Assembly (NCBI GenBank): GCA_903824965.1
Contig: CAIJYR010000213.1
Span: 1 to 33,707 of the forward strand
Reading direction: 5' to 3'
Origin: an uncultured Thiotrichales bacterium
GTDB lineage: Bacteria > Pseudomonadota > Gammaproteobacteria > CAIRSR01
Length of the DNA stretch: 33,707 nt
Under the pieces are notes generated by a model, which had not been told where the DNA came from, did no database searches, and saw only the letters and a program-made list of their open reading frames with translations. Below are positions 1 to 33,707 of this stretch, piece by piece. Position 1 is the first letter of the stretch; the number at the start of each line of letters is the position of its first letter. The translations under genes were made by a program, and so were the position numbers.

Positions 1-10
1 AAATGGCTTT

Positions 11-141
11 ACGCCGTGCTCGGTTGCCTTACGTTTTGTCTCAGCCCGCGATACGGCTGCGGACATCGACAAAACGTACGGCCCTCACGGCTACGCGGGG
101 CTCGTCGCACTACGCTTCGCTCCATGTGCTCCTCGATGGAG
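11..141 (+). ncRNA. Structured RNA-like region, possible IscB omega RNA (HEARO)
   Basis: This stretch folds into nested hairpins. GCCGTG at 13-18 pairs with CACGGC at 86-91. A 15-base arm at 26-40 pairs with 68-82 at 14 of 15 positions. CAGCC at 42-46 pairs with GGCTG at 55-59. A separate hairpin joins CTCCAT at 120-125 to ATGGAG at 136-141. No convincing protein is encoded on either strand. A decayed IscB gene lies downstream on the same strand. IscB elements are known to carry a structured guide RNA (omega RNA, called HEARO in older work) just upstream of the protein gene. The identification is an inference from fold and position; the 5' guide end would lie left of the window. Confidence 0.42.
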
Positions 142-431
142 TGGAATTGTCAAACATGCTCGCCGAGGCTCACTATGAAGGTTACACACAGTCCATACAG
201 CGCGGCGTCGATGCACACAAACGTTGGCTCACACCTATCCGATCCAAGGTACGCTTCCAAGATTCACGAACGACTCTTCCTCGCATTGTCCCACACGCAC
301 TCTGACCAGGCAATGCTGAGCCTTGCCCAATGTGAGATGAGCCTGAACGAGAGAGTGTGTTTCCAGCTTTAAGAACCCCACCCCTATTCAGGTCGGGTCT
401 TGTAAAAACAAGCTTACACTTGACCAGTCTA

Positions 432-920
432 AGTCTCTACAGGACTACGTCTTTTGGGCCATGACACCTACGGATGTGTGCCAGTTTGTGGATCTGTCGC
501 TAATCGTTAAACATCTTGAAGAGGGGTAAGGACTTGGTATCATTCAGATCACCGCAAGCATCGGCCCTTGTCTATGTGCCATCCAGCATGGACGAGGGCG
601 TTGCTGACAGTAGGAAGGGCAGCGGTATCAAAGCTACTGGCCACGGCAGTAGGCAAATGTGCGGCACAGATTCAGTACGGTTTTCCAGTTTGGTATCCTA
701 GGCGGCAAAAAGTACATTTCGGCTTTGAGACAGGCGATCAGGTGTGGGCTATTGTCCCGTCTGCCAAGAAAGCCGGAAAATATACGTGTCGTATACGGGT
801 TGCGTTCTGTGCCGAGCCACAGGGAGCTTCGATATCCAAACAAAAAAAGGACATATCTCTGGGATTTCACACAGAGATTGCATTCCTGTTCAACAAAAGG
901 ATGGCTATGCCTCTCTTTGA
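432..920 (+). pseudogene. iscB: Decayed IscB-type RNA-guided nuclease, C-terminal remnant
   Basis: Pieces of the C-terminal half of an IscB protein (the transposon-encoded ancestor family of Cas9) can be read in order but in switching frames. Frame 3 at 627-662 gives IKATGHGSRQMC. Frame 1 at 667-807 gives QYGFP, then FGFETGDQVWAIVP and KKAGKY..RIRV. Frame 3 at 813-920 gives RATGSFDIQTKKGHISGISH, then DCIPVQQKDGYASL and a stop at 918-920. These match the order of conserved blocks in IscB C-termini. At least two frameshifts break the frame, and the bridge-helix and HNH regions are not recognisable, so the gene is dead. Weak IscB-like echoes (for example SIQRGVDAHKRWL near 200-240) suggest the decay extends further left. 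The start coordinate is approximate; 627-920 is the firm part. Confidence 0.82.
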
Positions 921-975
921 AAACCGACTGCTTACCTCTCCATGGCAAAAGCCAGAGGTTTCTCGCAGGCTTCTG

Positions 976-2067
976 ATGAAAGAGTTATCTTCAGTCAGAC
1001 TGATTGCCGTTTTCATTGCCTCACTGTTCATCGTTGACTATGCCATTGCAGACGCACTCCTAACAACCCGGCCTGCACTCACGGTCAGCACAGTATCCCC
1101 TCTCTTGCAGGACTGGCCCATTCAAATCACTGCAAACGGCAGCATCGCAGCTTGGCAGGAAGCCATTGTAGGCGCCGAAATGGGTGGTTTACGTCTGACT
1201 GATGTACTGGTCAATGTGGGTGACGGCGTACACAAAGGCCAGGCATTGGCACATTTGCAGCATGACACCCTAGAGGCAGATCACGATCAAACTCGCGCAA
1301 ACCTGGCAGAAATGGCAGCCACTCTAGAAGAAGCCACAGCCAATGCACGTCGAGCACGTCAGATGGAAAGTCGTGGCGCACTCAGTCCCCAATCCATTCT
1401 CCAGTCCCTCACCGCTGAGAAAACTGCACGAGCACGCGTTGATGCGTTGATCGCACGTCTCAAATCAGAACAACTGCATCTTGATCAAACCCGCATAGTC
1501 GCACCGGATGATGGCACCATTTCCTCTCGGTCGGCAACACTAGGCGCAGTGCCAACACAAGGGCAGGAACTGTTTCGTTTGATCCGGAACGACAGACTCG
1601 AATGGCGTGCCGAATTGACCGCCGCCGATCTGGTGCAAATCAAAAACGGAATGCCTGTGCAGATCATGACCACGAGCCAAGAAATCATCCTGGGAAGTGT
1701 TCGGATGGTCGCACCCACTCTCAATCCTCAAACACGTACTGGCCTCGTGTATGTCGATCTGAACCACTCGGGGAACGCAAAGGCTGGCATGTTTGCACAC
1801 GGTACAATCACCCTGGCCCATCGCGTTGCGCTGACCCTTCCGCAAAGTGCCGTGATGCTCCGTGATGGTTTTAGCTATGTGTATAGCGTTGGGCCTGACC
1901 ATCGGATTACTCAAACCAAGGTCACTGTAGGACGACGTTCTGCTGCTTTCATGGAGATTAGCAGTGGCCTAGCAGCGGATGTGCGCGTTGTCCGCACGGG
2001 CGTCGGTTTTCTCACCGATGGTGACTTGGTCACAATCGTTCCTGACGTGGCCACGAACACCCCTTGA
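976..2067 (+). CDS. RND efflux periplasmic adaptor subunit (membrane fusion protein)
   Basis: This 363-residue protein should link an inner-membrane RND pump to an outer-membrane channel. An N-terminal signal segment (residues about 7-25, ending YAIA/D) exports it. A biotinyl/lipoyl-like half-motif follows (VGDGVHKGQALAHL), then an alpha-helical hairpin rich in Ala, Glu and Arg (about 100-170), the second lipoyl half (IVAPDDGTISSRSATLGAVP), and beta-barrel and membrane-proximal domains (VYSVGPDHRITQTKVTVG). There is no lipobox, so it is probably anchored by an uncleaved signal or is soluble. I chose ATG 976 because it gives a proper signal peptide and has CAGG six bases upstream. The frame is open back to 568, but that part encodes the IscB remnant. 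The stop lies 15 bases before the pump gene, so the two form an operon. The substrate cannot be read from the sequence. Confidence 0.88.
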   Translation: MKELSSVRLIAVFIASLFIVDYAIADALLTTRPALTVSTVSPLLQDWPIQITANGSIAAWQEAIVGAEMGGLRLTDVLVNVGDGVHKGQALAHLQHDTLEADHDQTRANLAEMAATLEEATANARRARQMESRGALSPQSILQSLTAEKTARARVDALIARLKSEQLHLDQTRIVAPDDGTISSRSATLGAVPTQGQELFRLIRNDRLEWRAELTAADLVQIKNGMPVQIMTTSQEIILGSVRMVAPTLNPQTRTGLVYVDLNHSGNAKAGMFAHGTITLAHRVALTLPQSAVMLRDGFSYVYSVGPDHRITQTKVTVGRRSAAFMEISSGLAADVRVVRTGVGFLTDGDLVTIVPDVATNTP

Positions 2068-13071: not shown

Positions 13072-13503
13072 CTAGCCTGTACAAACCAGCGTGACAGAAG
13101 CACTTGAGGAGTTGGGGCCAGAAACGAGACACGCGAGCGTTGTTCCCGCCACCCTGCAATCGACACCGCTAGAGGCACCAGCACTGACCATTGCATAACC
13201 GCTTGGCAAGCCACCCTGTAGAATACCCCCAGCACTCGTTACTGCCACATCATTGCACAGTTGCGTGGAGGCATTTACCGCAACCCCTTTATTGCTGTCT
13301 GCGAAGAATGCCGAATAATTGGTGCTAAACGCTGTGTTCAGCGCCCCGGCCACCCCACTGGTTGCTGCTGCAGAAGCATTCCCACGAAGATCGTTCAACT
13401 TTGGCAAGGCCGTAATGGCAAGAATGCCCAGAATTACGATCACCATAATCAATTCAATCAGCGTAAAACCAGCTTCTTTGCTGTCCATCATCCTGTTTTC
13501 CAT
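13072..13503 (-). CDS. MSHA-like type IV pilin, copy A
   Basis: This is a 143-residue prepilin. The leader ends KEAG, with cleavage before FTLIELIMVIVILGILAITA, the methylated hydrophobic helix typical of type IV pilins. ALPKLNDLRGNAS and GGLPSGY resemble MSHA pilins, and four cysteines (LCND, VDC, LAC, LVC) are kept in all four copies. ATG 13503 aligns the leader with the other copies and lies four bases after a GGGGGA ribosome-binding site; ATG 13506 is possible but too close. This is the most diverged of the four genes and last in the array. It assembles at the cell surface with prepilin peptidase and motor proteins that are not in this window. Confidence 0.92.
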   Translation of the reverse strand: MENRMMDSKEAGFTLIELIMVIVILGILAITALPKLNDLRGNASAAATSGVAGALNTAFSTNYSAFFADSNKGVAVNASTQLCNDVAVTSAGGILQGGLPSGYAMVSAGASSGVDCRVAGTTLACLVSGPNSSSASVTLVCTG

Positions 13504-13612
13504 CATTCCCCCTAGTTCAGCGATCCGTTCTCAGAACGTTCACGACCAAAACCAGCGATACGAATGAACGGACGCCACACCTACATCCTTGCTCACCTAC
13601 CTGACCCGCCCG

Positions 13613-13748
13613 AGGTGGTGTTGATCACCATTCGGAGAGATCACCCTTTGGAACACCAAGAACAACCGTTCACCGGGTTCTTGGAGATTCCCTACAACTA
13701 CTCTCACCCTCCTGTTCTGCTCACCATGCGGTCAGCGGATAAAAACCA
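13613..13748 (-). repeat. Pilin-associated downstream element, copy 2
   Basis: The hairpin here is GTGGTG at 13615-13620, loop TTGAT, CACCAT at 13626-13631. Relative to the other copies one C-G pair has become T-A on both sides of the stem, so pairing is kept. The element lies directly after the stop of pilin copy B. Confidence 0.7.
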
Positions 13749-14168
13749 CTAGCCTGTACAAATCAGCGTGACAGAAGCAGTCGAGGCGTTGCTGCCAGAA
13801 ACAGTACATGCCAGCGTTGCGCCCGACGCAGAACAGTTGACAGTATCTGACGACATCGTGTACCCGCTTGGTAAACCACCCTGCAGAACACCCGCCGTAC
13901 CCAGCATTGCAGTATCACTACATGCCTGCGCGGTAGCATTTATGCGGATCGCTTTTGTGCTGTTGGCGAGGAATGTCGAAAAATTATTGCTAAACGCTCC
14001 GTTCAACGCACCGGCCACCCCGGATGCCGCTGCTGTAGAGGCATCACTACGAAGATCGTTAAATTTTGGCAAAGCGGTCACGGCAAGAATGCCCAGAATC
14101 ACGATCACCATAATCAATTCAATCAGCGTAAAACCAGCTTCTTTTTGGTTCATAAGCCCATTTCTCAT
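13749..14168 (-). CDS. MSHA-like type IV pilin, copy B
   Basis: This 139-residue prepilin has a 12-residue leader (MRNGLMNQKEAG), cleavage before FTLIELIMVIVILGILAVTA, and the shared ALPKFNDLRSDAS and GGLPSGYTMS blocks. Four cysteines occur at ACSD, VNC, LAC and LIC. The C-terminus is Ser/Thr-rich (SGSNASTASVTLICTG). A GGGGGG ribosome-binding site lies four bases before the ATG. The central part around residues 75-93 (NATAQACSDTAMLGTAG) is nearly identical in DNA to copy D although the flanks differ, pointing to exchange between copies. Confidence 0.93.
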   Translation of the reverse strand: MRNGLMNQKEAGFTLIELIMVIVILGILAVTALPKFNDLRSDASTAAASGVAGALNGAFSNNFSTFLANSTKAIRINATAQACSDTAMLGTAGVLQGGLPSGYTMSSDTVNCSASGATLACTVSGSNASTASVTLICTG

Positions 14169-14268
14169 CAGCCCCCCAATTCACCGATCTGTTAGCAGAA
14201 GGTTCACAACCAAAGCCGACGATAGGAATCGCCCCCCAACTCCGTAGATCACCTACCTGAACCATCCC

Positions 14269-14376
14269 GAGGCGGTGTTGATCACCGCTCGGAGACATGC
14301 CCTCTTGGAACCCCAAGAACAACCGTTCCTCGGTTTCCTGGATTCCGCCAGTCATGCGGTTAGCGAATAGAAATGA
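14269..14376 (-). repeat. Pilin-associated downstream element, copy 3
   Basis: The hairpin is GCGGTG at 14272-14277, loop TTGAT, CACCGC at 14283-14288. From about 14231 to 14376 the sequence is nearly identical to copy 4 (about 14926-15064), so these two arose by recent duplication or conversion. It follows the stop of pilin copy C. Confidence 0.75.
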
Positions 14377-14796
14377 CTAACCCTTACAAATCAACGTGAC
14401 AGAAGCGGTAGAAGATTTGGCACCAGAAACAGTGCACGCCAACGTCGCGCCCGCCGCAGTACAATTGGCAGTACCCGTCGACATCGTGTACCCGCTTGGT
14501 AATCCGCCTTGCAGGATACCCGCCGTACCCATCACCGTCGCATCATTGCACGCTTGCACGCTACTACTCATGCGCACCGCTTTTGTGCTGTTGACAATGA
14601 ACGTCGAATAATTGATGCTGAATGCAGCGTTCAAGGCACCTGCCACTCCGGATGCCGCTGCACCAGAGGCATCACTACGCAAATCGTTAAACTTCGGCAA
14701 GGCCGTAATGGCGAGAACGCCCAGAATCACGATCACCATAATCAATTCAATCAGCGTAAAACCCGCTTCTTTCTGATTCATAGCCCCGTTTTTCAT
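14377..14796 (-). CDS. MSHA-like type IV pilin, copy C
   Basis: This 139-residue prepilin has leader MKNGAMNQKEAG, mature start FTLIELIMVIVILGVLAITA, then ALPKFNDLRSDASGAAASG and NYSTFIVNSTKAVR. The four cysteines are conserved. It is very close to copy D except for the stretch around residues 75-93 (MSSSVQACNDATVMGTAG), where D instead matches B. The C-terminus ends in TLICKG rather than TLICTG. The ribosome-binding site GGGGGG is four bases from ATG 14796. A 15-base motif in its upstream region is expanded to three copies (14833-14877). Confidence 0.93.
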   Translation of the reverse strand: MKNGAMNQKEAGFTLIELIMVIVILGVLAITALPKFNDLRSDASGAAASGVAGALNAAFSINYSTFIVNSTKAVRMSSSVQACNDATVMGTAGILQGGLPSGYTMSTGTANCTAAGATLACTVSGAKSSTASVTLICKG

Positions 14797-14832
14797 CAGC
14801 CCCCCCTCGTCACCGATCCGTTCTCAGAGCAT

Positions 14833-14877
14833 GCACGATCAAAACCTGCACGATCAAAACCTGCACGATCAAAACCA
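14833..14877. repeat. Three tandem copies of a 15-base unit upstream of pilin C
   Basis: GCACGATCAAAACCT repeats at 14833-14847, 14848-14862 and 14863-14877 (last base differs). A single related motif (TTCACGACCAAAACC and variants) lies at the same place upstream of the other pilin genes, for example near 13538 and 14201. The expansion lies 37 or more bases before the pilin C start and could affect its promoter region. Confidence 0.8.
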
Positions 14878-14956
14878 GCGACACGGACAAATCGGGACGG
14901 GATGAATGGGACGGATCGCCACCCCAACTCCGTAGATCACCTACCTGAACCATCCC

Positions 14957-15064
14957 GAGGCGGTGTTGATCACCGCTCGGAGACATGCCCTCTTGGAACC
15001 CCAAGAACAACCGTTCCTCGGTTTCCTGGATTCCGCCCGTCATGCGGTTAGCGAATAGAAATGA
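14957..15064 (-). repeat. Pilin-associated downstream element, copy 4
   Basis: The hairpin is GCGGTG at 14960-14965, loop TTGAT, CACCGC at 14971-14976. It directly follows the stop of pilin copy D and is almost identical to copy 3. Confidence 0.75.
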
Positions 15065-15484
15065 CTAACCCGTACAAATCAACGTGACAGAAGCGGTAGA
15101 GGAGTTGGAACCAGACACAGTACACGCCAGCGTTGCGCCTGCCGCAGTACAATTGGCAGTACCCGTCGACATCGTGTACCCGCTTGGTAAACCGCCTTGC
15201 AGGATACCCGCCGTACCCAGCATTGCAGTATCACTACATGCCTGCGCAGTAGCATTTATGCGCACCGCTTTTGTGCTGTTGACAATGAACGTCGAATAAT
15301 TGACGCTGAATGCAGAGTTCAAGGCACCTGCTACCCCGGATGCCGCTGCACCAGAGGCATCACTACGCAAATCGTTAAACTTCGGCAAGGCCGTAATGGC
15401 GAGAATGCCCAAAATCACGATCACCATAATCAATTCAATCAGGGTAAAACCAGCTTCTTTGTTATTCATCGACCCGTTATTCAT
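15065..15484 (-). CDS. MSHA-like type IV pilin, copy D (mosaic)
   Basis: This 139-residue prepilin has leader MNNGSMNNKEAG, then FTLIELIMVIVILGILAITA and the shared ALPKFNDLRSDASGAAASG block. Four cysteines and the Ser/Thr-rich end (SGSNSSTASVTLICTG) are present. The gene is a mosaic: 15207-15262 differs from copy B (13891-13946) by one base in 56, while the sequence on both sides matches copy C. A run of seven G lies just before the start codon as ribosome-binding site. It is first of the four pilin genes in transcription order, 38 bases after the pseudopilin gene. Confidence 0.93.
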   Translation of the reverse strand: MNNGSMNNKEAGFTLIELIMVIVILGILAITALPKFNDLRSDASGAAASGVAGALNSAFSVNYSTFIVNSTKAVRINATAQACSDTAMLGTAGILQGGLPSGYTMSTGTANCTAAGATLACTVSGSNSSTASVTLICTG

Positions 15485-33263: not shown

Positions 33264-33692
33264 ATGTGCGGAATCCTGGTAGTCAACGGGATCGATCGTC
33301 CCTTTAGTCATCATTTGCTCGGAACGCTCAGAAAACGAGGCCCAGATCAATCAGGGTTCTGGTGTGATGCTTTTGTCAAGATGGCACACACAAGGCTCTC
33401 TATTATTGGCCTTGACGAACGCGGCCTCCAGCCCATGGAAAACGCGACACACGTCATTGCCTTCAACGGAGAGATCTATAATTTTATTGAGATCAGAGAA
33501 CGGCTACACATGGCTGGTGTGCAGGTCGGTGGCGTCAGCGACACAGAGATCATGCTGTATGCGTGGAGTCAGTGGGGAGCATCCATTCTAAAAGACTTGA
33601 CCGGTTTTTGGGCGTTCGCGATTTATGAGAAACCCAAGTTGCCACCTATGACCACCATCAGAATCCTTCCAAGAGGTAATGGATTAATGTAG
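33264..33692 (+). CDS. Asparagine synthase (glutamine-hydrolysing), N-terminal fragment, probably broken
   Basis: The frame encodes the class II glutamine amidotransferase domain of an AsnB-type enzyme. It has catalytic Cys2 in MCGILVVNG, then KRGPDQSGFW, HTRLSIIGLDERGLQPM, AFNGEIYN and SDTEIMLYAWSQWG. Homology ends after FWAFAIYEK near residue 125, where the family continues to an R-D-R-x-G block and the synthetase domain. The last 16 or so residues are unrelated and the frame stops at 33692. Either an insertion or deletion broke the gene, or the rest lies beyond an element at the window edge. As it stands it could only hydrolyse glutamine. GAGGTGA precedes the ATG. Confidence 0.75.
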   Translation: MCGILVVNGIDRPFSHHLLGTLRKRGPDQSGFWCDAFVKMAHTRLSIIGLDERGLQPMENATHVIAFNGEIYNFIEIRERLHMAGVQVGGVSDTEIMLYAWSQWGASILKDLTGFWAFAIYEKPKLPPMTTIRILPRGNGLM

Positions 33693-33707
33693 CCTTATAG
33701 TAATCAA

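Follow-up and report, generated by a model that had tools for sequence, protein, structure and literature searches.

HEARO elements reportedly lie next to ATGA or GTGA, an observation said to go back to Weinberg in 2009. Among the closest described systems, IscB works with a guide located at the omegaRNA 5' end together with a target-adjacent motif (PMC9640706), and its IsrB relatives have motifs of the NTGA type (PMC9581776). Standalone omegaRNAs that function with IscB are also known, according to work cited in PMC9581776.

The window, which is the whole stretch of 33,707 nucleotides analysed here, belongs to genome G000 (3.2 Mb, 265 contigs, 98.4% complete). Our analysis makes it highly probable that positions 368–979 of the window are what is left of a single, once complete IscB-type (ISC/OMEGA) element. 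Its parts follow one another with the left end and omegaRNA first, then iscB and then the right end, as listed here with the flanks:

1–135, + strand: end of an unrelated dispersed repeat with strong hairpins, delimited by 42-mer copies and a shared boundary
136–367, + strand: left flank, non-repetitive among the matches listed in a genome search with window 1–950
368–548, + strand: left end of the element with the 5' portion of its HEARO/omegaRNA, covering positions 1–177 of the 211 positions of Rfam model RF02033
562–627, + strand: start of iscB with the PLMP-type N-terminal block RPLSMCHPAWTRALLTVGRAAV, from DNA likeness to the relative G002:C62 and from NCBIfam
627–921, + strand: frameshifted C-terminus of iscB, from tblastn, blastp and DNA alignment
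925–979, + strand: right end, with a hairpin (about 934–958) followed by TTTCTCGCAGGCTTCTG and the terminal ATGA, from aligned right ends
976–2067, + strand: gene for an HlyD-type membrane fusion protein (Pfam HlyD_D23, E = 1.2e-17)

The locus resembles the described IscB/OMEGA (ISC) elements (HEARO RF02033, NF040563) in having omegaRNA and iscB on one strand, with the RNA upstream, and also in its PLMP N-terminus, its C-terminal WED/TI region and the ATGA at its right end. However, the window copy differs from them in being internally deleted and frameshifted and in having no omegaRNA 3' end. What survives is the 5' portion of the RNA, ~22 codons from the start and ~100 from the end of iscB, and the right end; the RNA 3' end and the middle of iscB have been lost. 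The closest relative that we found is an iscB element in G002, a genome of another genus of the same family, on contig C62. The two are colinear and align in three pieces: window 371–532 shares 76% identity with the HEARO of the relative, 555–628 shares 76% with its first iscB codons, and 627–979 shares 70% with the 3' part of its iscB plus right end. The first gap, between HEARO and the iscB start, measures 22 bases in the window and 106 in G002:C62, so that the omegaRNA 3' end is about 84 bases shorter in the window; at the second, between the iscB start and the C-terminus, about 590 bases are absent from the window. The element of G002:C62 is itself internally deleted, with a gap inside its own IscB match. 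In the genome search with window 1–950, the left flank at 136–367 had no second copy among the 40 matches listed. By analogy with known IscB biology (PMC9640706), the intact element would have used the bases directly before 368 as its omegaRNA guide.

An Rfam scan finds RF02033 on the + strand at 368–604 with 50.3 bits (E = 5e-9), and a cmscan search of 300–548 only gives 54.1 bits (E = 1.3e-10) for 368–548. Because the score is higher without the downstream sequence, bases after 548 contribute nothing to the RNA match. The score of 54.1 bits falls below the gathering score of the family (83), as expected for a truncated copy, and the whole-window Rfam scan at gathering thresholds gave no match. 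Model positions 178–211 are missing; the HEARO pseudoknot has lost its 3' strand, and the copy does not amount to a complete omegaRNA. The RNA is therefore broken like its protein, and the dead protein beside a still well-paired RNA, as the sequence-only reading had it, turns out to be an element with both parts damaged, its real omegaRNA being cut at the 3' end. That reading had placed the omegaRNA in the nested hairpins at 11–141, and it overlooked the HEARO at 368–548, the N-terminal iscB block at 562–627 and the fact that the right end falls on the start codon of hlyD.

The hairpins at 11–141 are real and stronger than those of shuffled sequences (-53.5 kcal/mol, z = -3.0), but they are part of a dispersed repeat ending near 135 and not of an omegaRNA. 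The HEARO model does not match at 11–141, nor does any Rfam family at E <= 1 match there or in the 1–135 repeat. Further copies of the start of the window do exist: a 42-base piece of 1–135 occurs in 71 exact copies in the genome, nearly all of them at the very beginning or end of a contig. The copies that were read share their sequence as far as ...GTGCTCCTCG (window 135) and diverge beyond it, and contig C71 has what appears to be a full copy, estimated at ~0.3 kb. This repeat is probably responsible for much of the fragmentation of the assembly.

The protein part of the earlier description, a fossil IscB element with a frameshifted C-terminus at 627–920, is confirmed by matches to IscB in two frames interrupted by stops and by the DNA likeness to G002:C62. 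When the C-terminus of the IscB encoded in the same genome on C51 was used as tblastn query, it matched 676–969 (E = 6e-13) and, in another frame, 792–911 (E = 1e-8). The read-through frames match several IscB proteins in blastp, the C-terminus resembling IscB of the same genome, of Acidithiobacillus, of Vreelandella and of others. It contains GSFDIQTKKGHISGISH at 822–872 and KDGYASL at 898–918. For the RPLSMCHPAWTRALLTVGRAAV block, guided_IscB is the sole NCBIfam family matched, over profile positions 8–32 and weakly (E = 0.044). A large internal deletion has joined this block to the C-terminus at about 627. Nothing of RuvC and HNH is retained, and a Pfam search of window 659–976 on the + strand gave no match. 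Since just the PLMP start and C-terminus survive, in different frames, the copy is a relic and not a functional member of the IscB elements; it can encode neither a working nuclease nor a complete omegaRNA. Taken alone, this fossil is ordinary.

The right end at 925–979 aligns with the right ends of the C51 and G002:C62 elements and with a 90-copy family of right ends described below. It stops exactly on the ATGA at 976–979, whose ATG serves as the start codon of hlyD; ATGA is inferred to be the target-adjacent motif of this IscB lineage. The hlyD gene has orthologues in G001 of the same genus (72%), in G003 of the same family (65%) and in G002 (60%), and it is followed by a large ORF that we take for an RND transporter. 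Neither a HEARO nor a fossil is found upstream of the orthologue in G001 or G003. On contig C326 of G002, a HEARO-type right end of another subtype lies directly before the ATGA start codon of hlyD and probably arose through a separate insertion at this codon. The window right end carries a weak signal only, AGG six bases before the ATG, and its pairing with the anti-Shine-Dalgarno is -2.6 kcal/mol versus -6.6 kcal/mol for the common type of right end. Replacement of the ribosome-binding site by the right end is thus only plausible at hlyD itself.

The window copy is one member of a numerous group of related HEARO elements in G000, most of them without an ORF, and it is this population at start codons, rather than the window fossil, that is worth following. 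The genome has 37 HEARO matches; among the 30 of these that were retrieved, the window copy is the only one with an IscB match within 1.5 kb. The remaining retrieved copies are ORF-less and ~0.36–0.4 kb long when complete, with the layout GTCAACCACCCCCGCC..., HEARO, a short linker and the right end. At least 34 HEARO matches each are present in G002 and G003, and G001 has no HEARO match. The ORF-less elements are like non-autonomous IS derivatives (MITEs, IS200/IS605-like) in being short, without ORF, of high copy number and with both ends kept. However, their body is a guide RNA, their right end with its Shine-Dalgarno sequence stops on an ATG, and no Y1 transposase (TnpA) was found in the G000 assembly, which has three TnpB-type matches. 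A separate observation concerns contig C239 of G000, where a standalone right end is immediately preceded by sequence like the right end of the IscB lineage seen in the window, possibly a second fossil of that lineage.

Searching with the right-end pattern GGTTTCTCGGAGACATTGATGA, allowing up to 3 mismatches, gave 90 copies in G000, 180 in G002, 69 in G003 and a single weak one in G001, and the reversed pattern used as control gave zero. The common right end has GGAG six bases before the ATG. In 76 of the 90 G000 copies an ORF of at least 60 aa begins at this ATG, such an ORF being a proxy for a gene start that was checked with family profiles for 30 genes. NCBIfam families were matched by 27 of the 30 scanned ORFs (three have no family), and the profile alignments begin at or close to the N-terminus for rpsH, nuoK, rpmE, acpP, iscR, rpoN, gcvH, accC, nusA, trpS, pyrE and others. 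Many copies are reduced to the right end, the remainder having decayed and the RNA being lost. No enrichment of a displaced native Shine-Dalgarno over background was seen in the left flanks of the other copies. We found no report in the open-licence literature of right ends carrying a Shine-Dalgarno at start codons.

Based on these observations, we read the transposon right ends as putatively doubling as ribosome-binding sites. If ATGA serves the lineage as target-adjacent motif, the element would insert 5' of an ATGA, and such an insertion would separate the native leader from the start codon. Most right ends would then supply a Shine-Dalgarno (GGAG, six bases before the ATG) in place of the displaced ribosome-binding site, and insertions at start codons might be tolerated because most right ends bring their own and so rebuild the site. 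After the remainder has decayed, selection may hold the right end as the 5' UTR of the gene. Position, spacing of the Shine-Dalgarno and depletion of mutations support a putative role of the right ends as a mobile supply of ribosome-binding sites in G000. For the family as a whole we see roughly even chances that its nuclease-less, IscB-derived omegaRNA elements are mobile ribosome-binding sites: with a target motif, ATGA, that coincides with start codons and a right end that has its own Shine-Dalgarno, they could invade essential operons and persist as the 5' UTR of roughly 75 genes in G000. If true, this would show how a transposon of an RNA-guided nuclease spares its host, through a motif found at start codons and a right end that restores the site for ribosome binding. 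It would also show how the ends of dead transposons come to be retained as 5' UTRs of essential genes.

The strongest alternative is that the ATGA target motif, together with the removal of gene-breaking insertions, is enough to explain the placement and that GGAG is coincidental. The ATGA or GTGA said to adjoin HEARO elements would fit this explanation. So would the NTGA-type motifs in PMC9581776. However, only 11 of the 28 ATGA sites of the window that are either a gene start or non-coding are gene starts, a null that is based on hand-called genes in one 33-kb window; against this share of tolerated sites, 76 of 90 is a clear enrichment (binomial P = 1e-18). The same holds for copies that were found through their HEARO, which avoids selection by the right end: 19 of the 24 copies with a right end in reach, the window copy included, are at ORF starts (P = 8e-5). 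In the start-codon copies, GGAG is depleted of mutations, with 4 mismatches observed versus 19.6 expected (P = 5e-6, or 5e-4 when the recurrent position 16 is left out), although it is not the sole conserved part, as TT at positions 3–4 and C at position 8 of the right end are also never altered. Right ends without GGAG are less often located at starts: over three genomes, an ORF begins at 101 of 124 right ends with GGAG and at 18 of 45 without (P = 7e-7). Only one of 13 right ends of the G002 subtype ending in CTCGCGGGCATTTGGTGA is at an ORF start, and the right ends of a second HEARO subtype in G002, CTTCTCGCGGGCATTTGGTGA, have no GGAG and are mostly away from start codons. We consider it unlikely that the motif alone explains the placement.

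It is less likely still that the HEARO elements are domesticated 5' UTR regulators of the downstream genes and not parasites with a tolerable right end. Their sense orientation, the precise placement at start codons and a partly conserved structure would agree with such a function. However, the downstream genes have no pathway in common, many copies have kept the right end alone without the RNA, and G001, a genome of the same genus, has no HEARO and one weak right-end match.

That the window omegaRNA was kept in order to guide, in trans, an IscB from another locus of the genome, as suggested in the sequence-only reading, is very improbable: standalone omegaRNAs working with IscB are reported in work cited in PMC9581776, G000 has 37 HEARO matches and two iscB loci, and two-sided changes preserve the pair at 8 of 35 predicted pairs in 21 standalone copies, but the window copy has no RNA 3' end, it is closest to the G002 lineage without a comparable second copy in its own genome, and both iscB loci are disrupted. 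On C51, a frameshift next to a GT run puts the C-terminal region out of frame, and on C247 the gene has an inverted internal segment and a replaced C-terminus, so that an intact cognate IscB for use in trans, looked for in the 98.4% complete assembly, was not found there. The HEARO population is similar to the standalone trans-acting omegaRNAs cited in PMC9581776 in being HEARO RNAs without an adjacent iscB, whereas its members are compact mobile elements with a common right end at start codons in a genome with both iscB genes disrupted. The assembly has dozens of standalone omegaRNAs but neither an intact IscB nor a Y1 TnpA, which makes the mobility and retention of these elements a testable question.

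Two observations concern other parts of the window. Its last ~76 bases (33632–33707), at the end of an asparagine-synthase-like ORF (33264–33692), also close contig C24 and open contig C12; they belong to another dispersed repeat, which probably disrupts the gene. On the - strand, 13072–15484 holds a tandem array of four type IV pilin-like genes that resemble one another (GFTLIELIMVIVILGILAITALPK).
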